64,000 nucleotides of DNA, taken from Planctomycetota bacterium (GTDB lineage: Bacteria > Planctomycetota > Planctomycetia > Pirellulales > Lacipirellulaceae). This document shows, in pieces, positions 32,866 to 49,400 of the stretch; within the stretch, counting starts at the first letter, position 1; the number at the start of each line of letters is the position of its first letter. The notes beneath the pieces are model-generated. The model had not been told where the DNA came from. It ran no database searches and was given only the letters and a program-made list of their open reading frames with translations. Where the stretch lies: contig JAJDEF010000016.1 of NCBI GenBank assembly GCA_029259945.1, positions 1 to 64,000 on the forward strand, in the 5' to 3' direction. Both the position numbers and the translations under genes were made by a program.

Positions 32866-33161
32866 GCCGTTGCGACCAAAAGGCAAGCGGTTTTATCGGA
32901 TTGGCGGGATGAAGGTCGATAAATATTGGAATCCTTGTCTGACGAAGTTCTCGTAGAGTTGCAGAGTGAGGTCGCCTAAGATTACGTTATGTGGTCTACT
33001 TAGCCTGCGTATTTTACGCAATGCGGTTTCGTTGCGGGATTCGGCAAGTTGGGTTGCCAGACTATCCTTCCTGCAAGTTCGACTGGTGTTTATTATCAGA
33101 CATTCGTTGCCTTAAGTCGCAATTCGTTTCCCGTTGTCTCTCCTCACCTTTTCATCGCACT

Positions 33162-35315
33162 ATGCCAAGTAATCCAATTGATCGTGGTATGGAGTGGTGC
33201 ACATTGACCGACATGTTAGAGCAACGCGCTAGGAAACATCCTGAGCGTGTGGCTTTTGTTTTTGAAGAAGAGTCGGGCCACGTCACCGAGTATTCTTATG
33301 CAAAACTGGACGCGCGCGCGAGGGCGATTGCTGCTTGGTTAGTGGAACGTACTGAGCCGGGCGATCGGGTACTACTGGTTTACCCGCCGGGGCTCGAGTT
33401 CATCGCGGCTTTCTTTGGCTGTGCCTATGCCGGAGTATTGCCGGTGCCGGCGACCTATCCTAAGCCGCGCCGTCCCATGCCTCGGCTCGATTCGATAGTT
33501 GCCGATTGTCATCCGCGGTTGGTGCTGACCCATAGTTCGACGCTCGACGGACTAGCTTTGGAAGCACAATCGCCTGCAATTCGCGATCTAACTTGGGAAG
33601 CGACCGACCACCTTGCTTCGTCGATGGGTTCAGGGTTCCAGCCCGTTGGTCGAGAGCCTAGGGATATTGCCTTCTTACAGTACACGTCGGGTTCCACCTC
33701 AGATCCACGAGGCGTGATGGTCACCCATGACAACCTCTTGCATAATATGTGCGCGATCTGCGAAGGTTTTGCAATTGAAAATAACGAGGAGAATGGCCTT
33801 TTCCCGATTGCCGTGTTTTGGTTGCCCGCCTATCACGACATGGGATTGATTGGCGGAATTCTTTCACCTATTTCGGTGGGTGGAACCAGTTATTTATTAG
33901 CACCGACGACGTTCTTGCGGCGTCCCTTGCGATGGTTGGAGTTGTTGTCTCGTGTTGGGGCAGAGATTAGCGGCGCCCCGAACTTTGGTTACAAGCTTGC
34001 TGTCGAGAAGTCGACTCCCGCTGAGCGTGCGGAGCTGGATCTCAGCAGTTGGCGGTTGGCCTTCTGTGGCGCTGAGCCGATCCATCCCGATACCTTGAAC
34101 GATTTTTCTGAGGCATTTGCGGATTCTGGATTTCGTAGAGCCGCATTCTATCCCTGTTATGGCTTGGCGGAGGTGACCTTGTTGGCCTCGGGTGGTAAGG
34201 GACCATCGGAGCCGAGTATTTTGCATGTCGATCGGCAAGAACTTGGGAATCATCGCGGAGTCCGAATTGAGAGTTCACATCCTCGGGCGCAGGCATTGGT
34301 AGGTTGTGGTGCTCCGCGAAATGGTAATACGGTAAAAATTGTCGACCCCCAGACGGGGACTGAATGTGACGAAGGTGGCGTGGGTGAAATTTGGGTGCAG
34401 GGTGGATCAGTCACGCAGGGTTATTGGAAACAAGACGAGCTCAACCAAGAGATATTCCGGGCGTCGTTGAATGGCGATGGGCAAGAGACATTTTTACGGA
34501 CGGGCGATCTTGGGTTCTTTTATGAGGGCGAGTTGTATGTGACGGGGAGGCTCAAGGATGTGATTATCATCCGTGGTCGAAATCACTATCCGCACGATAT
34601 CGAGCGGACTGCCCAGCTTGCGCACGAAGCGGTGGATATGGGGGCGGCATTCTCGGTCGAGGGGGAAAGAGAAGAGCAACTCGTTGTTGTGCATCAATTG
34701 CGACGCGAGCATCGTGGCGCGGATAAAAACGAAGTGTTACGTGCAGTCCGCAAAAGTATTGTCGACGAACATGATCTTGACCCGCTTGCGATTCTACTGA
34801 TTCGCCCGGTGAGTTTGCCGATCACTTCCAGTGGGAAAGTGCAGCGAAGGCTGTGCCGCGAGCAGTACTTGGCAGGCCAATTGTCAGTGGTTGGCGAATG
34901 GACCAATCACGTTGCGGACGGGGTATGCAACATCGAGCGAGCCGCCGCGGTTGCTGGTGCACCCAGCTTTTTAGAAAACTTGGGCCAAGCGACCCCCGAT
35001 GCGTTGGCGGCAGAAATTCAGGAGTGGCTGATTGCCTGGCTCACAGAGCGGGCGAATCTCAACCCCGGGACGATGACCGCGACAACCCCCTTTGCGGAGC
35101 TTGGCATCGACTCGCTGACGGCTGTCGAGATCAGCCAAGAGCTTGATCAAGTGCTTGGCTTGCGACTGCCTCCGATGGTGATCTGGAGTTGTCCGAATCC
35201 TGAAACCTTGGCTCATTATCTGGCCGAGCGGCTTGTGGCAAACCGCTTGGCCTTGGAAAGTAACGGGACGGCTGGAGCTAGCTCTTCGGTTCGAGATCGA
35301 GGGCTGGATCGATAA
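33162..35315 (+). CDS. Fatty acyl-AMP ligase with C-terminal acyl carrier domain
   Basis: A 717-residue adenylation enzyme. AMP-ligase motifs: FLQYTSGSTSDPRGVMVTH (from residue 173), LPAYHDMGLIGGIL, YGLAEVTLLASGG and 'LRTGDLGFFYEGELYVTGRLKDVIIIRG'. This order and wording match FAAL-type enzymes, which activate fatty acids as acyl-AMP without forming a CoA ester. A carrier domain follows, with the phosphopantetheine serine S651 in ELGIDSLTAVEI. The acyl group is thus loaded onto its own ACP. No polyketide, NRPS or phosphopantetheinyl-transferase gene is visible nearby. The last 38 bases overlap the end of the convergent TolC-like gene. The start is uncertain (ATG 33162 or 33189). Confidence 0.88.
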   Translation: MPSNPIDRGMEWCTLTDMLEQRARKHPERVAFVFEEESGHVTEYSYAKLDARARAIAAWLVERTEPGDRVLLVYPPGLEFIAAFFGCAYAGVLPVPATYPKPRRPMPRLDSIVADCHPRLVLTHSSTLDGLALEAQSPAIRDLTWEATDHLASSMGSGFQPVGREPRDIAFLQYTSGSTSDPRGVMVTHDNLLHNMCAICEGFAIENNEENGLFPIAVFWLPAYHDMGLIGGILSPISVGGTSYLLAPTTFLRRPLRWLELLSRVGAEISGAPNFGYKLAVEKSTPAERAELDLSSWRLAFCGAEPIHPDTLNDFSEAFADSGFRRAAFYPCYGLAEVTLLASGGKGPSEPSILHVDRQELGNHRGVRIESSHPRAQALVGCGAPRNGNTVKIVDPQTGTECDEGGVGEIWVQGGSVTQGYWKQDELNQEIFRASLNGDGQETFLRTGDLGFFYEGELYVTGRLKDVIIIRGRNHYPHDIERTAQLAHEAVDMGAAFSVEGEREEQLVVVHQLRREHRGADKNEVLRAVRKSIVDEHDLDPLAILLIRPVSLPITSSGKVQRRLCREQYLAGQLSVVGEWTNHVADGVCNIERAAAVAGAPSFLENLGQATPDALAAEIQEWLIAWLTERANLNPGTMTATTPFAELGIDSLTAVEISQELDQVLGLRLPPMVIWSCPNPETLAHYLAERLVANRLALESNGTAGASSSVRDRGLDR

Positions 35316-37443
35316 TCTTTGGTTGCTCTATTGGCGAGTCGCCACTCGGCGGTAGCGGGAGCAAGAGTTCGCTGTCGTGACTTACTGGTTCCACGGTCTG
35401 TGGCGAATGGTCGGTCGTTGATTCTGAGGAGACGTCGTTTTCGCTCGGAACCGGATCGGACGGTAGCGGCGAGGTAGAATTCAATTGCTGCTCGTAGGGC
35501 CCGTAGCTAACGCGCGGGGCGTGCGCGGAGGTGTAGTTCATGGGTTGGCGGTGACCCCGCAAACTTTCGCGACGGGCAGCATCTTGATACGCCTGTTGTG
35601 GCCAACCACCTTCGCTAAGATAGACGCCATCGTAATCGAGTAACGTCCCTTTGGCGTAGTGGACATTTTTCACCGCGACCGCGTATTCCGTCAACGTTTG
35701 GTAATAGCGGCTTTGCGCATCGGCGAGGCGGCGCTGCGAATCGAGAAGCAGGTCGAGCGATATTTTGTCGGCTTCGAAGGCTGCCTCGACCGCTTCCATC
35801 TGCTGCCGGGCCGCTTCAAAACGATTGAGGGCTGTTTGGGAAACCATGTAGGCCCGTTGCATTTCGGCCACTGCCGAAGCGACATCGTGCAATACGACGT
35901 GCTCCTGCTCTCGCAATATGGCTCGCGACCGACTCAGTTGGAGTTCGGCATTGCGAGCTGCAGAAAAGGCGCGTCGAAAGCCAATCGGAACGCTCAGCTC
36001 TAAGCCCAGTTGCCATTCCTGAAAATCGCCGCTGGTGAGGTCTTCCCAGGCGTTGTCGAATCGTGGGTTGCCGCCGTCTGCGTCGAGTAGCCCCTGACCA
36101 AAGCCGCGCCAGCGATAGCGTCCAATGGCATCGAGTCGTGGCAGCAGGTAGTTTTTGCTAGCGATCCATTCCAGTTCGCTACGGCGTGTTTCAAACCGTT
36201 GTCGGCGGAGTTCAGCGCGTCGGATCACCGATTCGCGAGAAATCTGAGTCCAATCGAATTGGACGGGCGCGGTCATGGGTTCGTCGGCTGGGCGGAGTAA
36301 ACGCCCATCGCTGGGTGGTAATCCCATCAACATGCGTAATCGACGTTCCGCCACATGGACGCCCCCATTAGCGCGAAAAGTGCCGCCGCCACTGCCATTG
36401 CCTGTTCGTGTGCCATCGATTCTTCGGCCGCTCAGCGCGTTTTGCACTTCTTCTTGGAAACGGAAGAACTGCTCGCGAGCTTGGGCTTCTTTTTCTGCTT
36501 CGCCACCGCGTCTTCCCGATTCGTAAAGTGCATGGACCCGCCGCCAGGTATCTAGGGCAGCATCTCGGGCGGCAATCTTTGCGTCGAGATCGCGGTAGGC
36601 AAAGTAGAGATCCCAATAAGCATTCTCGATATTGCTGACAAGATTGCGGATGGCCATTTCAAAGTCGGCCAGTTCAACGTCCATGTTGACCCGTGCAATA
36701 AGCACCCCGCCGTAGACGCCGGGGGTGGTACTTGGTCCGGCAATGCGATTGAATTGCATACCGCTGCCTTGGAGAAGTGGATGCCGGAATTCGGTTTCTA
36801 GATTGACATTCCAAGCACTAGGGAATCGGTTGCCAGGGGCGTTGTTGGCATCGTACTCGGCATTGTGTCGAAAAGTTAATTCGGTACCAGAGACCGCTCG
36901 TTTTGTTAGCTGCGACTGCAAAGTGAAAGCATCTTGCTGAAGGATTCTTGTGCCGCCGCCAAAGAACTCGTTATTCAGGGCCTTGTCATTTTTTTCGCCA
37001 AAGACGCTGGTAGAAAATTGGGCATCGAAGGCACTCAGTGCAGCTTCGACACCAAAGCGAGGGTCGGTTTCTTGAAGGGCTGGATCCCAGTACGTCTCGG
37101 CGGTGGAAGGAGAACGCAGGATGGCTCCACCAAGATCTCGCAATACTTTGGATTGTGAAAGCGAAAGTTGAATCACTTCTTCGAGCTTCACCTCCCAATA
37201 TTCGGTTTCGCCCAAGTTGGCCAGGGTCACAGGTTCGAGGCTGGCCCAATCTTCGCTAGAGCAGCCGCACTGGCTGACTTGGGGATACTCGATCTGGGTG
37301 GCCAGCGCGTGGTAGCAGTCGCCCGTCTGACATGCCTTGAACTCGTTGGCACCGCGAGACCTGCAACCACCAACGACCGCGACGATCAAACCGATCGACA
37401 GCAGCAGTATTTGCTTTGGCAGTAGAGAACGGGTGCAAGACAA
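35278..37443 (-). CDS. TolC-like outer-membrane efflux lipoprotein
   Basis: A 721-residue outer-membrane factor. The N-terminus is a lipoprotein signal (QILLLSIGLIVAVVGGC, with C27 as the lipid-bearing cysteine). Two long helical repeats follow, each with a TolC-type pattern: 'LVSNIENAYWDLYFAYRDLDAKIAARDAALDTWRRVHALYESGR' and 'HDVASAVAEMQRAYMVSQTALNRFEAARQQMEA'. Beta segments such as RHPLLQGSG and 'ELSVPIGFRRAFSAARNAEL' form the barrel. The C-terminal 100 residues are Pro/Ser-rich. It forms a channel across the outer membrane. It is divergent from the HlyD operon at 37663 and is its likely partner. Confidence 0.9.
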   Translation of the reverse strand: MSCTRSLLPKQILLLSIGLIVAVVGGCRSRGANEFKACQTGDCYHALATQIEYPQVSQCGCSSEDWASLEPVTLANLGETEYWEVKLEEVIQLSLSQSKVLRDLGGAILRSPSTAETYWDPALQETDPRFGVEAALSAFDAQFSTSVFGEKNDKALNNEFFGGGTRILQQDAFTLQSQLTKRAVSGTELTFRHNAEYDANNAPGNRFPSAWNVNLETEFRHPLLQGSGMQFNRIAGPSTTPGVYGGVLIARVNMDVELADFEMAIRNLVSNIENAYWDLYFAYRDLDAKIAARDAALDTWRRVHALYESGRRGGEAEKEAQAREQFFRFQEEVQNALSGRRIDGTRTGNGSGGGTFRANGGVHVAERRLRMLMGLPPSDGRLLRPADEPMTAPVQFDWTQISRESVIRRAELRRQRFETRRSELEWIASKNYLLPRLDAIGRYRWRGFGQGLLDADGGNPRFDNAWEDLTSGDFQEWQLGLELSVPIGFRRAFSAARNAELQLSRSRAILREQEHVVLHDVASAVAEMQRAYMVSQTALNRFEAARQQMEAVEAAFEADKISLDLLLDSQRRLADAQSRYYQTLTEYAVAVKNVHYAKGTLLDYDGVYLSEGGWPQQAYQDAARRESLRGHRQPMNYTSAHAPRVSYGPYEQQLNSTSPLPSDPVPSENDVSSESTTDHSPQTVEPVSHDSELLLPLPPSGDSPIEQPKIIDPALDLEPKS

Positions 37444-37662: not shown

Positions 37663-39735
37663 ATGGTGATGTCCTCTACCCAACAACATGACGCAGTCGA
37701 CAGTGGCTGGCCTCAGCTCGAGGAATTTGTCGAGCAACTGCACGAGCTGGCGCATGCGCCGATCGGGGTCGAAGCATTCTATCGTCGACTGTTGGAGGGA
37801 TGTGTGCCTACCCTGGCAGCGTCTGGGGGCGCAGTTTGGCTGGCCAATGCGCAGGGACGTTGGAAACTCCTTCACCAGATCAATTTGCCACAAGTGATGA
37901 GTCAGGAAGATCGCACGGCCGAGGCGGCGCGCGATTCGCTACTGCAAAAAATTGCTTTATCGCACGAGGCCATGATCTTTCAGCCCCATAGCGGAACGGT
38001 CGAGGTGCGAGAGAACCCAACAGATTCGGTGCTCGTTGCGTCGGCCGTCCACAGCGATGCCAGCTCGCCAGAGACCAAGCCGGTAGCCATCATCGAACTT
38101 TTCATGCGCGCGGGTACAAGTCCCGCAGTGCAGCAAGGTTGGCAGGATATGCTGTCGACCGTTTGCCACATTGGGGCCAGCTATCACACCTTTGACGAGT
38201 TACGTAGTTTGCAAGTCGAGCGTGGTTTGCATGGCCAGTCGTTAACTCTGCTGAAACGGATCAATCAGCCGACGGATTTTCGTCAGACGATGTTTGAGAT
38301 TGCCAACGAGGGTCGCAGTTTTGTCGAGGGCGATCGCCTTAGCGTGGTATTACGTGATGGCCGTTCTTGGCGATTAGCGGCCGTGAGTGGCGTCGATCGC
38401 ATTGAGGCACGAGGCGACACGGCGAAGAAGTTAGAGCAATTGGCCGATCGTACCGCAAGCTGGGGCGAGCCCATTGATTTTGGGGATGCCGAGCCGTGCA
38501 GCGAGGGACTCGCCAGCCGTGACGATCTTCCGCCAGAACTAACCTGTGTTCTTGAGCAACAGGTCGATCTCTCGCACGCCCGTCGGTTGGTGGCTGTGCC
38601 GCTTGAATTTGCCGAGGAAGTCGATTCGAGTCAAGTATCTCCGACGCCACCGGGTCAACCAAGGGCTGTTCTGATTGCCGAGCAGTTTAGTGCCCCGACT
38701 CCTGGTTTTTCGCATCAGCGAGTTGTCGAGCTAGCTCAATTGTGCGAGCCTGCGCTGCGTCAAGCAATTCGGTTGAATCGTTTTCCCACGCGTGTTTTTC
38801 TGAGGTGGACGGATCGTTGGGCCCACGCACATCGAAATTGGGGAAGTCGACGATTGGCGCTTGCAGCGTCTGCAGCAATGGCGATCGTCGCGGCGCTGGT
38901 TTTTGTGCCCTGTGACTTCGAGGTCGAAGCTCCCGCGACTTTAGTTCCTTTGGTTGAACGCGACGTATTCGCGACGGCCAGCGGGATTGTTACCGAGGTG
39001 CTGGTTGGCCACGGCGAAGAAGTTCAAGCAGGCGAGGTATTGGCGGTACTCGACGATCCGCAACTTGCGTTGGACACCCAGCGGTTGCAGGGAGAGATGG
39101 AAACGGTACGAAATCGGTTAGAAGCCATTGCCGTGGCGAGGACCGACCGCAAGGTTCAAGCAGATACAGACCGCGAACGTTTGCCGTTGTCTGCAGAAGC
39201 TCAGCAGCTAGGAAAAAAACTGGCGAGTTTAGAGCGACAGCGAGAGATTTTGGCTGCTCGTCGTGCAGCGCTCACCCTTCGTAGTCCGATTGCTGGGCGA
39301 GTGCTGACGCTTGATGTACAGAACTTGTTACGGATGCGTCCGGTCGAAAGAGGGCAGATGCTGCTGAAAGTGGCCGATGTCGACGCAGGCTGGTGGTTAC
39401 TGGCCGAGGTCGCACAAGATCGGATAGGGCATGTGGTTGCCGAGCAACAGTCTAGCGAGGTGAGTTTGCCGGTCAGGTTCCGCTTTGCGGGCGAAGAGTC
39501 CAAGATTTCCACCGGGCATGTGGAGTCGATCAGTGCGACGGCAGTGCTTGATCTCGATGCATTAAACGAAGCGGCCCCGGCCTTACCGGTGCGTGTGGCG
39601 GTCGACGAGTCTTCATTGCCGACGGCTCGGCCAGGGATGACTGCGAAGGTTCGTATTTACTGCGGTCGGCGCTCGTTGGGCTATGTTTGGCTGCATGATG
39701 TTTGGGAAACAATTTATTCGTGGTTGGTGTTTTAA
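37663..39735 (+). CDS. GAF-domain and HlyD-type membrane-fusion protein
   Basis: A 690-residue fusion. Residues about 30-190 and 205-385 look like two GAF-type cytosolic domains (GGAVWLANAQGRWKLLHQ; FVEGDRLSVVLRDGRSWRLAAVSG). A single membrane helix at 397-418 (LALAASAAMAIVAALVFVP) is followed by a periplasmic HlyD-like adaptor: lipoyl half VFATASGIVTEVLVGHGEEVQAGEVL, a helical hairpin, and 'LRSPIAGRVLTLD' closing it. The layout puts a sensor in the cytosol and an adaptor in the periplasm. The start is ATG 37663. It is the first gene of the operon; its stop codon shares a base with the next start. Confidence 0.85.
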   Translation: MVMSSTQQHDAVDSGWPQLEEFVEQLHELAHAPIGVEAFYRRLLEGCVPTLAASGGAVWLANAQGRWKLLHQINLPQVMSQEDRTAEAARDSLLQKIALSHEAMIFQPHSGTVEVRENPTDSVLVASAVHSDASSPETKPVAIIELFMRAGTSPAVQQGWQDMLSTVCHIGASYHTFDELRSLQVERGLHGQSLTLLKRINQPTDFRQTMFEIANEGRSFVEGDRLSVVLRDGRSWRLAAVSGVDRIEARGDTAKKLEQLADRTASWGEPIDFGDAEPCSEGLASRDDLPPELTCVLEQQVDLSHARRLVAVPLEFAEEVDSSQVSPTPPGQPRAVLIAEQFSAPTPGFSHQRVVELAQLCEPALRQAIRLNRFPTRVFLRWTDRWAHAHRNWGSRRLALAASAAMAIVAALVFVPCDFEVEAPATLVPLVERDVFATASGIVTEVLVGHGEEVQAGEVLAVLDDPQLALDTQRLQGEMETVRNRLEAIAVARTDRKVQADTDRERLPLSAEAQQLGKKLASLERQREILAARRAALTLRSPIAGRVLTLDVQNLLRMRPVERGQMLLKVADVDAGWWLLAEVAQDRIGHVVAEQQSSEVSLPVRFRFAGEESKISTGHVESISATAVLDLDALNEAAPALPVRVAVDESSLPTARPGMTAKVRIYCGRRSLGYVWLHDVWETIYSWLVF

Positions 39736-40628
39736 TGAAGCCCCCTATTTTTAAGTTGGCAGGAAACGTCGTCCCGGTTCTTTTATTGAGTCTGATTGGA
39801 CTTGCGTCGACTGATGCCGTCGAGCAGCCGACGATCTTGGTCGAGTCGGTGGTTCTAAGGCCACTCCAAGCAGCGGAAGTGCCCTCGCGTCAGACAGGTC
39901 TGCTGGAATCGATAGGTGTTGAGGAAGGTCAGAGCGTCGAGAAAGGCCAGATTTTAGCTTCGCTAGATGCGCGTGAGGCATGGCTTGTGGTGACCCAAGC
40001 AAAATTGCAATCGGCACAAGCTGAAGCCAAAGCCAAGAATTTTGTTCGCGTCGAATATGCGCAGAAAGCGCTCGACGTTGCGAAAGCTGAATTGCAGCGA
40101 TCGCAGGAATCGATCGCGAAGTTCCCGAAGAGTATTTCTCAGTCGCAGGTAGATGTTGAACAACTGACGGTAGAAAAACTTGAGCTTGAACTTCAACAGG
40201 CTGAGCATGAAATGACGCTGGCTCGCTATGATTTTGAACTCGCCGAAAACGAAAGAAAGGCTTCGAAATTGCGACTCTCCTTGCATCAGTTGCGAGCCCC
40301 GTTTGCGGGAACAGTAGTATTGGTTCGTGGTCGGGTGGGAGAGTGGGTCGAGGTTGGCGCCCCGGTGCTGCGATTGGTAGCGACCGATCGCTTGCGAGCA
40401 GAAGGGTTTTTAGCAGTGGAAAGTGTGACTGCGGATTTGGTAGGTCATCCGGTGAGGTTTTTAGTAGGAACAGGCGAAGGCGAACAGCAGGTTGCTGGAG
40501 TGTTGCGATTTGTCAGCCCCGAGATGGACCCTGTTACCCGACAGGTACGCGTGTGGGCCGAGTTGCCTGGGTTGCAGGGCGTATTGCGTCCGGGGCAACA
40601 AGGTTCGATGGAGATATTGGCCAAGTAA
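39735..40628 (+). CDS. Periplasmic HlyD-type adaptor
   Basis: A 297-residue adaptor with a signal peptide or anchor (FKLAGNVVPVLLLSLIGLAS). The lipoyl domain halves are RQTGLLESIGVEEGQSVEKGQILASLDA and 'LRAPFAGTVVLVRGRVGEWVEVGAPVLRL', joined by a coiled-coil hairpin of about 100 residues; the C-terminus is the beta-barrel domain (VTRQVRVWAELPGLQGVLRPGQQGSMEI). This is the classic membrane-fusion protein that bridges an inner-membrane pump to a TolC-like channel. Its ATG overlaps the preceding stop (TAATG), so it is translationally coupled. The next gene starts 31 bases later. Confidence 0.9.
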   Translation: MKPPIFKLAGNVVPVLLLSLIGLASTDAVEQPTILVESVVLRPLQAAEVPSRQTGLLESIGVEEGQSVEKGQILASLDAREAWLVVTQAKLQSAQAEAKAKNFVRVEYAQKALDVAKAELQRSQESIAKFPKSISQSQVDVEQLTVEKLELELQQAEHEMTLARYDFELAENERKASKLRLSLHQLRAPFAGTVVLVRGRVGEWVEVGAPVLRLVATDRLRAEGFLAVESVTADLVGHPVRFLVGTGEGEQQVAGVLRFVSPEMDPVTRQVRVWAELPGLQGVLRPGQQGSMEILAK

Positions 40629-40659: not shown

Positions 40660-42834
40660 ATGAAAACAAACTCGGTAACTAACTTGGCTGCGATCGATCG
40701 TCCGTTGGGTCTGCGCGCACGGGGAGATCTCGAACCGGTGTCGGTCACGTTCGTAGGCCAGTCGACCTATGTGCTTAAAGATCCGCTCACACTGGAATAT
40801 ACGCATCTCACGGCCGAAGAGTATTTCCTGTTTGAATCGCTTGAGAATTCGATTTCGCTCGGCGAGTTGCGACGCGAATTCGAGAAGAAATTCGTTCCAC
40901 GACAAATCACGCACGAAGCGTTACAGCAGGGAATCAATCATCTGTATAGCGAAGGCCTGCTATTAAGCAAAAGCGAGGGGCAGGGGCGAGAACTTTTTCA
41001 GCGAGGTGAACGCCGCAAGCGAACCGAGCGATGGCAAAGTCTGCTGCAGCTACTGTCGTTTCGCTTAGGGAGCATTGATGCAACGCACCTTATTGATGCC
41101 GTCTACGCGAAGATGCGTTGGGTATTCTCTGCGTCGATGCTTGCCGTGGTTGCTGCAATCGTTTTTTACGCCGGTTGGATTCTTTTGTCGCAGAGCCAGA
41201 TGGTTCTCGCCCGGTTGCCGAGCATCCATGAACTTGCCCAGCCCGAGTATTGGGTGCTTTGGCTGGCAACTTTTGTCGTGGTGAAAGTCATTCACGAGTT
41301 AGCCCATGCCGTGACGTGTCAGCATTTTGGAGGTCGTTGTCACGAGATGGGGGTGCTGCTGCTTGCCTGCGTGCCTTGTCTCTATTGCGACGTGTCAGAC
41401 GTTTGGCGATTGCCGAATAAGTGGCAGCGAATCGCCGTTTCGGCGGCGGGGATGATCGCTGAGTTCGTGATTGCTGCCGTTGCGATGATTGCTTGGTGGC
41501 ATTCCCAACCAGGCTTGCTAAACACTTGGTGCTTGAGTTTGGTGATTGTTTGCTCGGTCGGGACTTTGTTAGTGAACGCGAATCCCTTGTTGCGCTACGA
41601 CGGTTACTACCTGCTTTCCGACTTCGTCGAGGCGCCGAATCTGGCTGGTCGTGCTCAAGGTCTGTTGCCAGGCAGGGTGCGAAGTTGGTTGTTGGGTGAA
41701 CCGCGGGTCGAGGATCCGCTGCTCAGCAAACGACAGAAGCGAGGCTTGCTCGTCTATGCCGTGGCGGCGCGGATTTACTTGACGATGGTCTTATTGGGTA
41801 TTTTGGTAGTGTTGTTGGCTTGGGCTCGGCCGTATCGATTAGAAAATGTGGTTTATACAATCGGGTTGATTACCTTGTTTGGGATGTTCGTCCGACCAGT
41901 GATGGCTATTGGTCGAATGGTAAAGAACCCTTCGCTGCGTTTTCGTCTACGGAACCTGCGTGTTGCGACCTTGGTGGCGGGGATTGCTGCAACGATCGCG
42001 GCCATCTTGTTTTTGCCGATTTCGCACTCGGTGTCTGGTTCGATGGTTCTTGTTCCTGCTGCAGGGAAAACGGTTTACGCAACCCACGCTGGCGAACTAC
42101 GCTACGCCGTGGCTGTAGGAACTCAGGTCGAGCAAGGGGAGGTGCTGCTACGGCTGGCCGATCCTGAAATCGAGCTGGCGATAGCACACCAGCAGGGTGA
42201 ATATGATGTCCGGCAAGTGCGTTACGATCAGCTTGGCGTTTTGCGAGCTTTGGATGAACAGGCACTGCAGCAGTTGCCCACAGCTCGGGCGGCATTGACG
42301 GACGCTAGGTTGCAAATGGAAGAGTACCGTCAGCAGGCCGAGGAGTTGGTGATTCGGGCTCCTGCAGCGGGAACCATTGTCGCTCCGCCGCAGATAGAGC
42401 AGGCTACGGGGGACGAAGGGCTTTTGCCTCGTTGGACAGGATCTCCGCTGGAACCGCGTAATTTGGGCTGCTGGGTTGAAACGGGAACCGTTCTTTGCAC
42501 GTTGGCCGACCCGGGCCGGTTAGAGGCTTTGCTGGCCATCGATCAAGCAGATGTTTCCGAAATTCGATCTGGGCAGGTAGTCAGACTTCGGCTTGATGCT
42601 GCGCCGTCACGAATTTTTGAGGGAGAGGTCATACAGGTTGCCCGACGAGCTGCACAGAAGTCAGAAGGAGTTGCGAGTTCGCAAAAATACCATTTGGTAC
42701 AAGTTCGTTTGAATCGTCAGGATCGCGATTACTTAATTGGGGCTCGTGGACAGGCAAAGATCGAAGCCAGTCGGATGACGCTGAGCGCAATGATCACGAC
42801 GCAGTTGCAAAGGATGCTGCAATTGCCTTGGTAG
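40660..42834 (+). CDS. PqqD-like/M50 metalloprotease/HlyD fusion protein
   Basis: A 724-residue protein. The N-terminal 110 residues resemble PqqD/YydH-type winged-helix domains (YVLKDPLTLEYTHLTAEEYFLFESLE; ITHEALQQGINHLYSEGLL). A membrane-embedded M50 protease follows: HELAH at 212-216, NPLLRYDG at 308-315 and 'CLYCDVSDVWRLPNKW' between them, as in YydH-like peptide zinc metalloproteases. The last 270 residues are a HlyD-like adaptor (lipoyl halves near 445-490 and 560-610). Such fusions would link peptide recognition, intramembrane cleavage and export. The start is ATG 40660 (a GTG lies three bases before). No ABC transporter is in the operon. Confidence 0.88.
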   Translation: MKTNSVTNLAAIDRPLGLRARGDLEPVSVTFVGQSTYVLKDPLTLEYTHLTAEEYFLFESLENSISLGELRREFEKKFVPRQITHEALQQGINHLYSEGLLLSKSEGQGRELFQRGERRKRTERWQSLLQLLSFRLGSIDATHLIDAVYAKMRWVFSASMLAVVAAIVFYAGWILLSQSQMVLARLPSIHELAQPEYWVLWLATFVVVKVIHELAHAVTCQHFGGRCHEMGVLLLACVPCLYCDVSDVWRLPNKWQRIAVSAAGMIAEFVIAAVAMIAWWHSQPGLLNTWCLSLVIVCSVGTLLVNANPLLRYDGYYLLSDFVEAPNLAGRAQGLLPGRVRSWLLGEPRVEDPLLSKRQKRGLLVYAVAARIYLTMVLLGILVVLLAWARPYRLENVVYTIGLITLFGMFVRPVMAIGRMVKNPSLRFRLRNLRVATLVAGIAATIAAILFLPISHSVSGSMVLVPAAGKTVYATHAGELRYAVAVGTQVEQGEVLLRLADPEIELAIAHQQGEYDVRQVRYDQLGVLRALDEQALQQLPTARAALTDARLQMEEYRQQAEELVIRAPAAGTIVAPPQIEQATGDEGLLPRWTGSPLEPRNLGCWVETGTVLCTLADPGRLEALLAIDQADVSEIRSGQVVRLRLDAAPSRIFEGEVIQVARRAAQKSEGVASSQKYHLVQVRLNRQDRDYLIGARGQAKIEASRMTLSAMITTQLQRMLQLPW

Positions 42835-42836
42835 GG

Positions 42837-43574
42837 CTAGGGAATTAGCAGTATAAGACCTGCCACCACGCCGACCTGAGCAATGGCTCCTGTGACCTTG
42901 AGAGGGAGGCGATTTCGGCGTCTTGGTACACAGCTACCGGGGCGGTAGTGCCCTAGGGTGTATTGGCAGTCATGGGGACGATCGACGGCCATCTTGTAAG
43001 GCAAGGCAGGAATCGTAAGGAAGAATCGTGTCGCTGAGATCACTGGCTGCAAGAGGTAGCTTGCCGAGTAGCCGTAGCGTTCGGCATTGATTTCTTCGAA
43101 GTAGAGAGGCCGATGACGCAGGCCAGTGGCTGCCCAATGTCGATCGGTCATTGCCCAGCCTTCTTGTATCCGACGATCAATGGTCGGTGGCTGGGTCGCT
43201 GCACATTCGCCAGCAAAGTTCTCTGGCAACGAACCACCGGGTAGAGAGATATTGCTTGCTAGCGACGACAACGGCAGACCCACATGGCATCGTGAATGGA
43301 CTTTTTCTTCGGAGGCAGCAGAGTGATCAGGTGTAGCGATGACTTCGGTATTTTCCTCAGGCGAGGAAAGATCTCTTTGGTCTGCAAAGAGATCTAATGC
43401 TAGGTGGCTGGCAAGTCGAAGTGTTGGGTTCGTTGCCCACTGAATGACCGATTCTTCGCCGTGCAGCAACGAGATAGCCGTGGCGGGCCAGAAGAAGGCG
43501 ATGGCGCAAACGGTTATTAGCCAACATCGTTTCGAATTTGCCTTGCGGCTGGGTGGGGCGGTAGTAAAGGGCAT
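42837..43574 (-). CDS. Conserved planctomycete-type hypothetical membrane protein
   Basis: About 245 residues. An N-terminal hydrophobic segment (CWLITVCAIAFFWPATAISLL) and a C-terminal one (VTGAIAQVGVVAGLILLI) frame a soluble part that holds 'LRHRPLYFEEINAERYGYS', a phrase I associate with a planctomycete-specific family of unknown role. It ends two bases after the convergent M50-HlyD gene. The start is uncertain; I use ATG 43574, with an open frame to 43622. Its position inside the export locus suggests a link, but nothing in the sequence proves it. Confidence 0.5.
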   Translation of the reverse strand: MPFTTAPPSRKANSKRCWLITVCAIAFFWPATAISLLHGEESVIQWATNPTLRLASHLALDLFADQRDLSSPEENTEVIATPDHSAASEEKVHSRCHVGLPLSSLASNISLPGGSLPENFAGECAATQPPTIDRRIQEGWAMTDRHWAATGLRHRPLYFEEINAERYGYSASYLLQPVISATRFFLTIPALPYKMAVDRPHDCQYTLGHYRPGSCVPRRRNRLPLKVTGAIAQVGVVAGLILLIP

Positions 43575-43814
43575 CGAGACTCTCGAATCGGGGGTTGCTG
43601 TCGAACAGGCCGTAGAAAGCACTGTCGACGCCGGAGAATCGGTTTCTCAAGAAGATTCGGTCTTGTCCGCACGACCCGAGCAAGCGGTATTTCCCGCAAA
43701 GTTTACCTGGTTTTCCATGCTCGAGAGCCGGATAACCCCGTGATAGCAGCGGCTAAGGTGGGTTTCCGGGGCCCTCACTTGGTGAAAACGGCAAGCCGAG
43801 AGCATGCCAAATAT

Positions 43815-43844
43815 TTGACAACCCGACGCATTTGTTTGAATAAT
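43815..43844 (+). promoter_or_regulatory. Possible promoter of the PKD surface protein
   Basis: A perfect TTGACA at 43815-43820, an 18-base spacer and AATAAT at 43839-43844. Transcription would begin close to ATG 43851, giving a near-leaderless mRNA. If the real start is GTG 43740 this promoter would lie inside the gene, so the call is tentative. Confidence 0.4.
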
Positions 43845-43850
43845 CGACAG

Positions 43851-46367
43851 ATGGGACTCTATTCAATATTCCCCCGAATTTTTTCTCCACCGAGTCGACC
43901 ACGACTCGCTGCTGCTCCGCTCTTGCCGCAGCGTTTAGAACGTCGACGCGTGCTTGATGCTTCTGCAGCGAGTTTGCTACTTGGGCCATCGGGTGCCAGC
44001 GAATTTGTGCAGGTTGGGGAAATCTTCGACCCGGCGCCAACGGAAGCCGATTCGCTTGATACCGTCGCAGCGGCGAACCTCAATACACCTCCTTCGGCGA
44101 TCAAGTTTTTGAACGTCTCGAAAGAGGTCACCGAGTCTGGTATCGCCCAATTGGCATTTCAGTTTGAAGACCCAGATATTGGAGATACGCACACGGTCGA
44201 GATTGATTGGGGCGATGGTACGATCGATACGCTTACGCTTAAGAACGATGAGCGCGAAGTTTCGGCCACGCATCGCTACCTCGACGATACACCGACCGGT
44301 CCAACAGAAGTTCCGTATGCGGTTGCAGTCAAGGTAACGGATAGCGATGGCGGAATCGCCACTGCCAAGACGCAGGTGTTGGTGAAGAACAGCGAACCCT
44401 TGATGTTTGTGTCGCCGGTCTCAGACATTGCCGAAGGGGGAGTGGCCCGACTGTCGTTCATTTTTTTCGACCCTGGTATTCTGGATACTCATGTGGTCGA
44501 AATTGATTGGGGAGACGGGACAGTCGACACGGTGATTCCCCCCGCAGGAGACCGATCTCTCATTGCCAATCACCAATACCTCGATGACACACCCACGGGG
44601 CCAACGGAGGTAGCCTACACGATAAATGTCAAACTCTCTGACGATGATGGTGGCGTGGCCACTGCCAAGACCAGTGTGCTGGTGAAGAATGTTGCTCCTT
44701 CGAATCTTCAAGTCACCCCAGTTGCCGTGATCGACGAAAATAGCTTTACGCAGCTGCAAATCACTTTTGACGATCCCGGGACACTGGATACCCATGCGGT
44801 CGAAATTGATTGGGGAGACGGGACGATTGACACGTTGACTCCTCCATCGGGGTCGCGGTTCTTGATCGTCAATCATCAGTACCTCGACGACATGCCCACG
44901 GGGCCTACGGAGATTGCTTACCCGATCGATGTTAAAGTAACCGACGACGATGGTGGTGTGGCAACCGCCAAGACCAGTGTGTTGGTGAAGAATGTTGCTC
45001 CGACTATCGACCGCCTATTTCTCTCTCAATCGGTGATCGAAGAAGGCAACTCGGTGACGGTCACCGGGACGTATAGCGATGCGAGCCGCCTCGACACGCA
45101 TACCGTCATGGTCCGATGGGGAGACGGAACGAGCGAAGTGCCCACTTTTACCAATGTGAATGGGGCGGGTTCTTTTACGGCAACCCATTTTTATGCCGAC
45201 AACGACACGCCGAATCCCGACGATGGCCCGGTGCCAGATAATCTTTACACGGTTGCCGTGACGGTCGTAGACGACGATGGCGGAGAAACCACGAAGACGA
45301 TCGATCTGACGGTTCTCAACGTTAGCCCGATTTTAGATCCAATTATTGAGGCCACCGACGTGAACTCTCGGGGGGAAACATTTTTGACGATCCGTTTCTC
45401 TGACCCGGGAGCAGATACACTCACGGTTTATGTCGATTGGGGAGACGTGCGAGATCCTAGCGACCCTTCGATGAGGGCGCTGCAGCCGTTTGTGATCGAC
45501 CTGACGGGTATCGATGGTCCGGGCACGTTCACCGTGACGTTGATGCACGTTTACAGCGGGCCCCCGAATCCGGCCAGCCCCGCAGCGGACATCGATCTTT
45601 TTGTATTTGTCGCCGACGATGACTTTGGCGATGCGGTGGTTGCCGACGGCCAGAGCGAAATCAGGATGGCGACCATCAAGAATCCAGGTATTGGCGAAGA
45701 GCCTGTGTTTATTGATACGACTCCACAAGTGCCTCGCCTAGTTTTTCCGCCTCGAGCGCAGAGTTTCTTTTTTGAAACGACCTCGACTGACGCAGGCGGT
45801 CGATCAGGAGGGGAGTTACAGGCCGCCGCTGGCGATACGAATGTCACCACCGAGCGCTACCTAGAACTCCGAGAGTTCGACGAAGACGGCAATCTTGTCG
45901 AGAGCTACCGGCTCAAACCCGAAGTGCTCCGCGATCTGCCGGGGTTATTTCGCAAGTTGCCAGATAAGCACTACGAAATTCATCTTGTTCATACCGAGAC
46001 GAATACGCGAAGGCTGGTTCTTGCCTTTGATATTCGCAAGGGCAAGGCGATTGATCTTAGTGATGACTCAGAAGGTACGCTTGATCGCCCACCTACAGAT
46101 GAGGTTATTCGCCCCTTTGAAGAAGCGGTAGAAACCTCGGATGAGACCACCGCGCTTCCCCCAGCCAACTTTGATCCGTTAACCATCGATCAGCCCAGCG
46201 ACCGGCCAACGGCAACGCAATTTACGGGATTGGCGATGGTGGGATTGGCGGCAAGCCAGTCGTTCTCGTCGTGGGCTGAGCAGGTCGATCGCACGGTTGC
46301 TCAGGCAGGACGGAAAAAATGGCAGCGACTACGGCTGCACAGGCCGAATCGTCGGAAAAATCGGTAA
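43851..46367 (+). CDS. PKD-repeat surface protein with N-terminal LERRRVLD motif
   Basis: An 838-residue protein. Residues 29-36, LERRRVLD, sit in the N-terminus like the LEPR-XLL motif of large planctomycete surface proteins and are followed by ASAASLLLG. Five PKD-like modules follow: VEIDWGDG at about 116, 216 and 317, 'VMVRWGDG' near 419 and 'VYVDWGD' near 526. The first three lie 300 and 303 bp apart. The C-terminus has a hydrophobic stretch (GLAMVGLAASQSF) and a basic tail (LHRPNRRKN), like a sorting tail. It lacks a normal signal peptide. GTG 43740 would add 37 residues. Likely an exported adhesin or wall protein, and the candidate substrate of the adjacent export genes. Confidence 0.75.
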   Translation: MGLYSIFPRIFSPPSRPRLAAAPLLPQRLERRRVLDASAASLLLGPSGASEFVQVGEIFDPAPTEADSLDTVAAANLNTPPSAIKFLNVSKEVTESGIAQLAFQFEDPDIGDTHTVEIDWGDGTIDTLTLKNDEREVSATHRYLDDTPTGPTEVPYAVAVKVTDSDGGIATAKTQVLVKNSEPLMFVSPVSDIAEGGVARLSFIFFDPGILDTHVVEIDWGDGTVDTVIPPAGDRSLIANHQYLDDTPTGPTEVAYTINVKLSDDDGGVATAKTSVLVKNVAPSNLQVTPVAVIDENSFTQLQITFDDPGTLDTHAVEIDWGDGTIDTLTPPSGSRFLIVNHQYLDDMPTGPTEIAYPIDVKVTDDDGGVATAKTSVLVKNVAPTIDRLFLSQSVIEEGNSVTVTGTYSDASRLDTHTVMVRWGDGTSEVPTFTNVNGAGSFTATHFYADNDTPNPDDGPVPDNLYTVAVTVVDDDGGETTKTIDLTVLNVSPILDPIIEATDVNSRGETFLTIRFSDPGADTLTVYVDWGDVRDPSDPSMRALQPFVIDLTGIDGPGTFTVTLMHVYSGPPNPASPAADIDLFVFVADDDFGDAVVADGQSEIRMATIKNPGIGEEPVFIDTTPQVPRLVFPPRAQSFFFETTSTDAGGRSGGELQAAAGDTNVTTERYLELREFDEDGNLVESYRLKPEVLRDLPGLFRKLPDKHYEIHLVHTETNTRRLVLAFDIRKGKAIDLSDDSEGTLDRPPTDEVIRPFEEAVETSDETTALPPANFDPLTIDQPSDRPTATQFTGLAMVGLAASQSFSSWAEQVDRTVAQAGRKKWQRLRLHRPNRRKNR
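44150..45000 (+). repeat. Three tandem PKD-coding units of about 300 bp
   Basis: GAAATTGATTGGGGAGACGG-type phrases recur at 44196, 44496 and 44799, and 'GCCAAGACCAGTGTG(C/T)TGGTGAAGAA' recurs at the unit ends. The units are close enough to suggest recent duplication. Confidence 0.8.
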
Positions 46368-46489
46368 TCGGCGCCCTCCTCATCGCCACGGCAAATTACA
46401 ATCGAGGTTAGAGCGTTTAGTGATCTGCCCTGTTGTGTGCTATCTCGGTAGACCCCCTCTCGACACCCATTCTTTTTTCGACACCTTCG

Positions 46490-49400
46490 ATGCCAAACTG
46501 TCCTGCATGTCATGCCAAGTTGGACGAGCCTTCGCTCGCGGCGCGCCGTTGCGCTTTTTGTGACGCTGCGCTCGATAGTGTTTCATCGCAGAACGCGTTG
46601 AATCAATCGGATGCGGATGAAACGATTGAACTTCAAGTGAACGAGGATGGAACGGTAGACGAATTCGCCACGGTCGACCCTGAGCAAGTGAATCGAGAGG
46701 ACAGCTTAGAGGGAACCGAGACGGTGGAGTTGGGGGGCGATAGCCTAGCGAGCATCGACATCGACGTCGTTGAGCAGGCTGATCCTGACAGCGCCACGAT
46801 TGCCTTTCATGCCGAGAAAACGATTGACTTTTCAACTTTAGAGGGAGACAAACTTTCTGAGAGCCAAGTGACGGCTCAGTGGCTAGACAATGTCGAGGGT
46901 GGTAGCGACCTCTCTCCTGATGTGACCATTAAACAAAAAGAGACGATCACTGGGACGTATGTCTCGCAATCGTCATTGGTGGTCAAATATCGCAATCTTC
47001 GTTCAACCGCCGACAAGTCTGCATCGAGTGTGTCGGCAGCCGATGCCCCCGACTACGAATTACTAAAGGTCATTGGCGAAGGTGGCATGGGGGTCGTGTA
47101 CGCCGCTCGCCAATCGGCGATCGCCCGAACAGTGGCGTTGAAAATGCTTCGAGGTTCAGGCGCCCAAACGGCAGAACAGCGCGAGAAGTTTATTTCGGAA
47201 GCCGTGATCACGGGCGAGTTAGATCATCCCAACATCGTGCCGATTTATGATTTGGGAGCGAACGACTCTGGGGCGTTGTTCTACTCGATGAAGCGGGTAC
47301 GTGGTACGCCGTGGAACGACGTGCTTGAGAAAAAGTCGCTGGCCGAAAATCTGACGATTTTGCTGGCGGCTGCCGATGCGGTTGCTTTTGCCCATGCGAA
47401 CGGTGTGCTGCATCGTGATCTCAAGCCCGAGAACATCATGCTCGGCGATTTTGGCGAGGTGCTAGTCATGGACTGGGGCTTGGCTCGGATTAGCGATGAA
47501 TTCCCTAATGCTGATTCGGTCACCCAGTCGGACGTCATGGGCGGAACGCCGGCTTACATGGCACCAGAGATGGCCACCGGCCCAATCGATCTGGTGAGCG
47601 AAGCGAGTGATATTTATTTATTGGGGGCGATTCTTTATGAAATTGTCGCAGGGCAACCGCCTCATACAGGCAAGAATGTCATGGCTTGCTTGTTCGCGGC
47701 TTCGAAGAACAAGATCGTAACGACGGAGCAGTCAGGCGAGTTGATGGACGTCGCGCTGACCGCAATGGCTACCAAGCCTGCGGATCGGTATGAGACAGTC
47801 CAAGGTTTGCAGGAAGCTATCCGGCGGTATCAATCCCATTCCGAAAGTGTTGCTCTCACCGATAACGCTACCAAAAATCTCATAGTCGCCCAAGAAGCGG
47901 ACGATTATGAGCTGTTTTCGCGAGCCGTTTATGGTTTTCAGGAAGCATTAACGCTATGGGATAGCAACGCTCGAGCGCACGAGTCTCTTTCTGATGCGCG
48001 TGTTGCTTATGCAAGGTCAGCGCTGGCGCGTAGCGACTTTGATTTGGGCCTTTCGTTGTTGAATGTTGACGACGAAAAGCATCATTTAGTCTTCGGGCAA
48101 CTAGAAAAAGGTCGTCGCGAACGAGAGCAACGCAAGCGACGTTTCAAATGGTTGAAGGGCTTGGTTGCCTTGCTGATTGCGGTTGTGGTGGGAGTGGTGT
48201 TGGTGGCCAATGCGGCCGTTCGTACTCAGCGTGATAAGGCAATCGTTCAGCGCGATCGGGCAGTCAAAGCCGAAGGCGAAGCTGTAGAACAGCGAGATCG
48301 TGCCGTGGTCGCCGAAGGCGAGGCCCAGGAAAACTTCAAAAAAGCGGAAAGAGAAAAAGAACGTGCCGAGCAACAACGGAAAATTGCGATCCAAGCAAAG
48401 CATGACGAAGAATACGAGGCCTATGTTGCCCGCATCGGGTTGGCCAGTGCGAAGATCGAAGAAAACGCCTTCGATCGTGCGAATGCCTTGTTAGAGCAGT
48501 GCCCCGCAGAATTATGCCATTGGGAGTGGGGGCGGCTTTCGCATCTCTGTCAACTGAGCCAGAAGACTTGGAGCGTAGACGGGCCCGTGGAGTCGGTCGC
48601 TTATTCGTCTGATGGTCGATATTTCTTGACTGGCGATTGGGACGGCAAGGCACGACTTTGGGATGCGAAGACAGGCGAAGTGAAGCAAATAATCTCGCAT
48701 GGGCAATACGTGCATGCGGTGGCCTTCGATCCGGCAGGAAAACGTTTTGCGACAGGCAGCAGTGATCGCACGATTCGCCTCTATGACGTTGCAAGCGGGA
48801 AGCTCCTCCAGACACTTACAGGACATGATGATGCCGTCTTGTGTGTGAGATTTTCGTCCGATGGAAACCATCTTCTCAGCGGGGGCTACGACAACACGGC
48901 ACGCATTTGGGACATTGCGGCGGGGCAGGTAACGCAAAAGTTACGGGGGCACACCTGGTGGGTTTGGGCGGCTGAGTTTTCTCCCGACGACCAACGCATC
49001 GTGACCGCTAGCCAAGATGGTAAAGCCATTGTATGGCAAATGACAACGAACACTGAAAACGATCGCACCCAGTACGAGGTGCTCACCGAATTTACAAAAC
49101 ACGATGGCCCGATCTACGATGCCAAGTTTTCGCCCGATGGCAAAAGTGTTGTAACCGCTGGTTATGATCGCCGTGTGTTGTTGTGGAACCCTGACGAAGT
49201 TGAGCCGGTCGATATCGCGCGTCGACTCGAGAATCAGGAAGACCCTCCCGCTCCCTTCCGAGAATTGTCCATTCACGAAGGGCCTGTCCGCACGGTGGCA
49301 TTTTCTTCGGATGGCAATCGAGTTGCCTCGGGTGGGCAAGATAACGTCGTGCGAATATGGCACCTGTCCTCGAACCAAGCAGGAAAGGTGTTGCGGGGGC

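Follow-up and report, generated by a model that had tools for sequence, protein, structure and literature searches.

What does a bacterium do with a protein that joins a peptide-recognition domain, an intramembrane protease and a secretion adaptor in a single chain? Such a protein is encoded in the window, by which we mean the whole 64,000-nucleotide stretch of planctomycete DNA analysed here. Its gene starts at ATG 40660 (with GTG 40657 as an alternative) and stands in the following neighbourhood, in which the fusion is listed with its three parts:

35278..37443, minus strand: TolC-like outer-membrane efflux protein, 721 aa (Pfam OEP, 6.3e-23)
37663..39735, plus strand: long HlyD with an N-terminal extension of about 400 residues, a conserved neighbour of the fusion
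39735..40628, plus strand: small HlyD / RND-type adaptor, 297 aa (Pfam HlyD_3, 7.5e-15; NCBIfam RND_mfp above cut-off; alternative TTG start at 39702)
40660..42834, plus strand: RRE/PqqD, M50 (site-2 protease) and HlyD adaptor fusion, 724 aa plus stop
40693..41013, plus strand: RRE/PqqD-like winged helix, fusion residues 12-118 (AF2 fold; Pfam PqqD in relatives)
41131..42009, plus strand: M50 core, fusion residues 158-450 (Pfam, motifs, helices)
42016..42780, plus strand: HlyD/MacA-type periplasmic adaptor with a helical hairpin, fusion residues 453-707 (Pfam HlyD_3 and HlyD_D23; Foldseek)
42837..43622, minus strand: secreted-looking conserved protein with motifs PLYFEE..ERYGY and YTLGHYRPGSC, present in the window and in the loci of 6/80 relatives
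43740..46367, plus strand: PKD-repeat surface protein, the likely cargo, with a basic leader and LERRRVLDASA (from its sequence and neighbour position)

An earlier note had read 40660-42834 as one chain with three domains of these kinds, and this observation is confirmed by Pfam, AF2 models and the PqqD matches of relatives; its interpretation is partly supported. At the N-terminus, where it had proposed a PqqD/RRE fold, an AF2 model of residues 12-118 alone, built from 104 sequences (pLDDT 86.5), has the three-stranded wing and three-helix winged helix of that fold. The closest folds by Foldseek are TigE and TbiB1, both leader-binding RREs. VIA-align gives a Z of 9.8 for TbiB1 (2.8 A over 82 residues), 9.7 for the lasso B1 protein 6jx3 (2.7 A over 84), 9.1 for MibB and TigE, and 7.8 for PqqD 5sxy (2.7 A over 86), while DNA-binding winged helices rank below the RREs, with a Z near 6. 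The window fusion's own N-terminus has no Pfam PqqD match, but among the 104 N-terminal domains in the alignment 83 match PqqD (PF05402) at E up to 1, the best of them at 1.7e-6. A profile of this alignment placed the lasso RRE 6jx3 (0.004) and PqqD 3g2b (0.006) at the top of 16 PDB sequences (E up to 10). Judging by the modelled fold, the fusion can probably grip a leader peptide through this domain.

The membrane core matches Pfam Peptidase_M50 (PF02163) at residues 203-279 with 32.2 bits, above the cut-off of 27.2, and carries HELAH (212-216) and NPLLRYDG (308-315) where the earlier note had placed them. These are the HExxH and second N-P-x(4)-D-G motifs of the family, here in membrane helices, of which the AF2 model and hydrophobic 19-mers predict about seven; the model shows one of these 19-mers, at 227-248, as a beta hairpin. 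The catalytic residues (H, E and H, N308 and D314) are kept in 109/109 aligned relatives. As 78 of these were fetched by the pattern NPL[ML][RK][FY]DGY, conservation of the second motif is unselected only in the 31 from a whole-protein search, and both motifs are kept in 31/31 of those. Neither of the two outcomes that the earlier note had named as refutations, a different N-terminal fold or an unconserved catalytic site, was seen. The M50 core probably cuts a leader inside the membrane. The roughly seven helices of the model would place the RRE domain on the cytosolic side and the adaptor in the periplasm.

The C-terminus is a lipoyl/barrel-sandwich domain with an alpha hairpin; Pfam HlyD_3 (601-670) and HlyD_D23 score above their curated cut-offs, and its best Foldseek matches are MacA, MexA and ZneB (MacA 3fpp, E 2e-12). 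Through this part the fusion probably engages a channel of the outer membrane. For the fusion as a whole, phmmer against the PDB returned MacA-type matches alone, and Foldseek with the full-chain AF2 model (mean pLDDT 82) returned adaptor proteins as its sole matches, with none for the M50 part.

The earlier note went on to claim that recognition, cleavage and export are joined in one chain, setting it apart from separated peptide-maturation systems. The three kinds of domain are indeed there. Export does not reside in this chain alone: its gene is accompanied by those for two more HlyD proteins and a TolC-like channel and, in many cases, for a SecA paralogue. Nor is the union of an RRE with an intramembrane site-2 protease new: MpaP, as described in PMC10036551, has this build and removes the leader in daptide biosynthesis. 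This precedent leaves the HlyD part and the gene's surroundings as the unusual features. The suggestion that the LERRRVLD protein encoded downstream is the partner was a good hunch; this likely partner is a large surface protein and so differs from the small peptides of RiPP-like systems.

The idea that the fusion is peculiar to the window's genome was rejected, since it is present in 32/149 and, in a larger draw, 66/294 planctomycete genomes. Its family spans Planctomycetota and Pseudomonadota, and certain genes regularly accompany it. These encode the long and the small HlyD, a TolC-like protein, in many cases a short SecA paralogue, and giant surface proteins whose N-terminus bears an LExR motif of the LEPR-XLL type, which in the window reads LERRRVLD. 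In 80 planctomycete loci, fetched by pattern and tblastn, the usual upstream neighbours are the long and small HlyD genes. A sub-group (the window, L044, L055, L073 and L089, the last from Rhodopirellula baltica) has the TolC-like gene, a protein of the 42837-43622 type and an LEPR-type protein all beside the fusion. In L045 and L048 the TolC-like gene stands there without the LEPR gene or the conserved unknown protein; in L046 and L095 the latter is present and the sequence ends too soon to judge, as it also does in L047 and L077. In a FastTree phylogeny without an outgroup, L044, L045 and L046 are nearest to the window's fusion.

The 42837-43622 protein has no Pfam or NCBIfam match. Its family is planctomycete and kept between the protease-adaptor and the LEPR protein, and the window's genome holds a second copy at G000:C24:38080-38466. 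On the other side, a fatty-acyl-AMP ligase with a carrier domain (32991-35315) adjoins the TolC-like gene, as it does in L045 and L047. After the LERRRVLD protein comes a Ser/Thr kinase of 1643 residues that carries about 20 WD40 repeats (46433-51364), and kinases resembling it occur near the operon in several other planctomycete loci.

The window's genome has a second operon of long HlyD, small HlyD and fusion (L005, G000:C16:3038-8585; fusion 38% identical) that has no TolC-like or LEPR-type neighbour. In G107, 30 kb hold a SecA, an LEPR giant (>5,700 aa), the small HlyD, a TolC-like protein, the long HlyD, the fusion and a second TolC-like protein, and a second five-part operon lies elsewhere in the genome. 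All five machine genes stand together in G051, and the cargo, both adaptors, the fusion and SecA share one locus in G284. A convincing LEPR-type motif within 10 kb was found in only eight of 82 planctomycete loci (the window, L044, L055, L073, L075, L080, L083 and L089), so adjacency is the exception in this phylum.

A tblastn search against plasmids found 80 records, 15 of them covering at least 80% of the query, and we read 16 loci of Pseudomonadota (H1-H4, H6, H8, H11, H12, H14, H15, H17-H21 and H30), taken from 30 listed records and chosen for diversity and annotation rather than at random. In 14/16 an LEPR-type motif lies near the N-terminus of a long protein, which is the directly upstream gene in 12. 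The motifs are LEPRFMFDAA (H1), LEPRYLLSAD (H3), LEPRVMFDAA (H4), YEPRLLLSAD (H6), LEPRLLYDAA (H8), LEPRFLLSAD (H11), LEPRLLLAAD (H12), MEPRVLLSAD (H14), LEPRVLLNAD (H15), LEPRFMFDA (H17), IEPRILLSAD (H18), LEARLMFDAA (H20), LEPRLLLSAD (H21) and LEPRVVYDAS (H30). The linked giants range in length from about 3,300 to over 11,000 aa and share this one N-terminal motif, and three of the cargo genes are named LEPR-XLL by NCBI. In H1 the motif lies at a distance of about 10 kb, and the intervening DNA is free of exporter genes; in H4 a gap of some 1.5 kb separates the frame with the motif from the next long frame, and in H12 the motif stands in frame upstream of the annotated start. The stretches read in H2 and H19 contain no LEPR motif.

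A SecA paralogue of 638-674 aa is the next gene in 7/16 plasmid loci, and all seven were confirmed as SecA by SecA_DEAD, PP_bind and the P-loop (Pfam); the stretches read in the other nine contain no SecA gene. In planctomycetes, a SecA relative lies by the operon in 9/80 loci (two of them cut by a contig end), and a SecA paralogue lies 1.8-6.1 kb from the fusion in seven genomes. At the genome level, at least two SecA proteins occur in 23/32 genomes with the fusion versus 6/117 without (Fisher 1.4e-14), or 16/20 versus 5/57 when counted by family. In a FastTree phylogeny of 31 SecAs without an outgroup, the long canonical proteins form one clade with the short ones outside it, and the plasmid short SecAs group with two planctomycete short SecAs (support 0.98). 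The only SecA found in the window's genome (G000:C21, 647 aa) is unlinked to the fusion and groups with the operon-linked SecAs; a canonical SecA was not found in this assembly, which is 92% complete.

The linkage extends to whole genomes. We searched 149 planctomycete genomes drawn evenly for the fusion (E up to 1e-20) and for NF012209 (E up to 0.05), a weak 24-position model of LEPR-XLL that misses the window's own LERRRVLD protein, and then turned to a draw of 294 that includes them. Among the first 149, NF012209 matched in 14, all of them within the 32 that have the fusion; none of the 117 without it, which reach 12.3 Mb in size, had a match (Fisher 2.9e-11). Collapsed into 77 families, the counts are 10/20 versus 0/57 (1.7e-7), and this collapse, made in the 149 genomes only, is the correction for relatedness in the co-occurrence tests. 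The 145 further genomes gave 18/34 with the fusion versus 4/111 without (2.3e-10). Over all 294, LEPR matches occur in 36 and the fusion in 66, with 32 in common (Fisher 3.8e-20); 34/66 genomes have the fusion without an NF012209 match, and 4/36 have the reverse (G165, G173, G200 and G281, with G200 and G281 having the weakest matches). The two lie within about 15 kb of each other in seven of the 32 genomes with both, where counts and genome sizes predict 1.4 (P 0.0002).

A search of the window's genome with NF012209 at E up to 10 gave eight matches, with the LERRRVLD protein not among them; LERRRVLD is a variant without the proline and falls outside the family (cut-off 17 bits). LERRRVLDASA lies at residue 66 counting from GTG 43740; a later ATG would put it near residue 30, which is also its place in L044. 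We also counted the motif with a pattern, which was fixed after some cargo had already been seen; it matched 10/418 long ORFs, one of which (L118) looks like chance, whereas 200 residue shuffles averaged 0.26 matches (maximum 2). Before the motif, 14/14 leaders checked are basic (net charge +2 to +12), and in 13/13 measurable leaders the mean hydropathy of any 12-residue stretch is at most 1.07; short hydrophobic runs (0.92-1.74) lie after it. In charge and hydropathy, these leaders are unlike the usual Sec signal.

What is observed, then, is the composition of the fusion, the conservation of its active site, its gene set, and a linkage to LEPR giants and SecA paralogues that is both physical and genome-wide. 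The reading we favour, with somewhat better than even confidence, is that the fusion forms the inner-membrane core of a previously undescribed exporter, assisted by SecA and dependent on TolC, for giant LEPR-type surface proteins. The cytosolic RRE domain would bind the cargo's N-terminal leader at the LExR-x-[L/V]-L motif (here LERRRVLD), and a dedicated short SecA paralogue (here encoded at G000:C21) would push the chain, still unfolded, through the inner membrane. The M50 core would cut the leader in or at the membrane, by which the cargo would be committed or released, and the fusion's HlyD part, together with the long and small HlyD proteins, would form a periplasmic duct to the TolC-like channel. 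With an HlyD part, two adaptors and TolC added to the RRE-M50 build, the cut would take place within an assembly that spans the envelope. That the leader is bound and cut, and at which site, that SecA is the motor and that the cargo passes through TolC are all inferred. The same machine may also serve unlinked cargo encoded elsewhere in the genome.

Whether this would be a distinct secretion system of Planctomycetota and Pseudomonadota, neither type I nor accessory Sec, with LEPR as its N-terminal signal for both targeting and processing, seems to us evenly poised. Like type I secretion, it combines HlyD and TolC-type parts with very large surface proteins. Unlike type I clusters, these have no annotated ABC transporter, contain an RRE-protease and a SecA paralogue in addition, and have cargo marked at the N-terminus; the mark of type I cargo is C-terminal. 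No ABC gene is annotated with the adaptor and TolC in the clusters read that have LEPR cargo, and the SecA paralogue would supply the drive for which type I secretion relies on an ABC transporter. In the accessory Sec (SecA2/SecY2) of Gram-positives, according to two papers, a second SecA is linked to a large repetitive adhesin (PMC5076819, PMC5526788). A second, shorter SecA linked to cargo is likewise found in plasmid and some planctomycete loci, whereas it is unlinked in the window's genome; the present bacteria differ in having two membranes, adaptor and TolC parts, and an intramembrane protease. The NCBI family of LEPR-XLL proteins (NF012209, 'LEPR-8K') shares the N-terminal motif on giants and describes that motif alone. 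The excerpts that mention LEPR-XLL in print do so in passing (PMC10868602; PMC9611531). In the open-access literature, with preprints outside its scope and hence as a weak absence, we found no enzyme or exporter for LEPR-XLL, no combination of M50, HlyD and PqqD, no link between planctomycete giants and HlyD, only unrelated work on HlyD together with M50 in planctomycetes, and no system of SecA, TolC, HlyD and a site-2 protease; the SecA2 papers among those listed deal almost entirely with Gram-positives. This route for giant proteins has apparently not been described before.

It is possible, if unlikely, that the fusion is a maturation protease only, which trims or releases LEPR proteins moved by ordinary Sec and some other outer-membrane path, and which the HlyD part would only position within the envelope. 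Leader removal by MpaP (PMC10036551, in excerpt) is a precedent, the window's genome has a TolC-like gene beside the fusion but its SecA elsewhere, and many planctomycete copies of the fusion have no TolC-like gene in reach. However, three HlyD-type proteins and a TolC-like protein travel together in both phyla, which is beyond the needs of a pure protease.

We give little credence to RiPP-like maturation and export of the daptide or YydH type, in which the substrate would be a short peptide and the large neighbour incidental. The best NCBIfam match of the fusion is indeed the daptide HExxH protease family of MpaP/DapP (NF041824; residues 82-412, 4.5e-46), with the same N-terminal RRE and M50 core, followed by YydH/LiaK (NF058609; 5e-10), which shares an M50 core and a peptide maturation setting but matches weakly, over residues 168-321 only. 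Both scores (157.7 and 39.3 bits) are under the curated cut-offs of 300 and 225, and plain membership of either family was rejected. MpaP/DapP also differs in its short peptide substrate and other gene neighbours, and no HlyD part is described in the excerpted source (PMC10036551). Furthermore, the annotated plasmid neighbourhoods of the fusion contain no RiPP modifying enzymes, and the genes linked there encode the giants with their common motif.

Marginally less credible still is a complex for small-molecule or metal efflux or for envelope-stress sensing, with the LEPR linkage explained by a surface lifestyle common to bacteria with large genomes. Efflux pumps typically contain HlyD and TolC parts, and the Pseudosulfitobacter counterpart of the long HlyD has a GAF domain in its N-terminal extension, suggestive of ligand sensing; the window's long HlyD has no Pfam match to GAF. 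Yet the annotation of the clusters shows no RND, MFS or ABC pump, save a type I ABC pair lying 3-7 kb further out in H2, a locus without an LEPR motif. The linkage to LEPR is physical and crosses phyla, and large genomes that lack the fusion, up to the 12.3 Mb noted above, have no LEPR match.

Giant adhesins of other bacteria are exported by LssB-type ABC transporters. That LEPR proteins take this classical type I route (ABC, HlyD and TolC, the latter two being common parts) with the protease-adaptor as an accessory is most improbable, as an LssB-type ABC transporter (TIGR03375) scores above the curated cut-off, the only count used because any ABC exporter scores and all 149 planctomycete genomes match at E up to 1e-60, in 0/149 genomes against LEPR matches in 14, and the annotated clusters with LEPR cargo have no ABC gene.

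The SecA-assisted, TolC-dependent exporter offers a concrete candidate machine for the passage of LEPR giants across two membranes, with a recognition domain, protease, motor, channel and short motif. Some of the longest proteins of bacteria carry LEPR-XLL, those seen here reaching >11,000 residues. If the reading is true, Gram-negative bacteria have another secretion route, an orphan domain name becomes a targeting signal, and leader recognition by RREs, known from small peptide antibiotics, serves giant surface proteins. The parts all come from known families; were the system reading proved, the whole would be of a new type.

Annotation of these loci is uneven. The plasmid SecA genes carry the labels prepilin peptidase, DEAD box helicase or SecA, or no label at all, with the first two misapplied in L128, L134, L135, L140 and others. 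On plasmid pRR4-35_6 (NZ_CP049043.1; L127/L152), an LEPR-type frame of about 11,500 codons takes up over half of the 62 kb and is missing from the gene table. In NZ_CP123586.1 (L131/L144), a calcium-binding protein of 8,100 residues has been annotated from a start that omits an LEPR motif standing in frame upstream. Just 3' of the giant gene, the alphaproteobacterial clusters L134, L135, L127 and L130, the last from Thalassospira marina, encode a small DUF3467 protein, and L128 a SapC-family protein. Escherichia (18) and Citrobacter (8) plasmids also appear, with lower-ranked fusion matches, among the matches listed.
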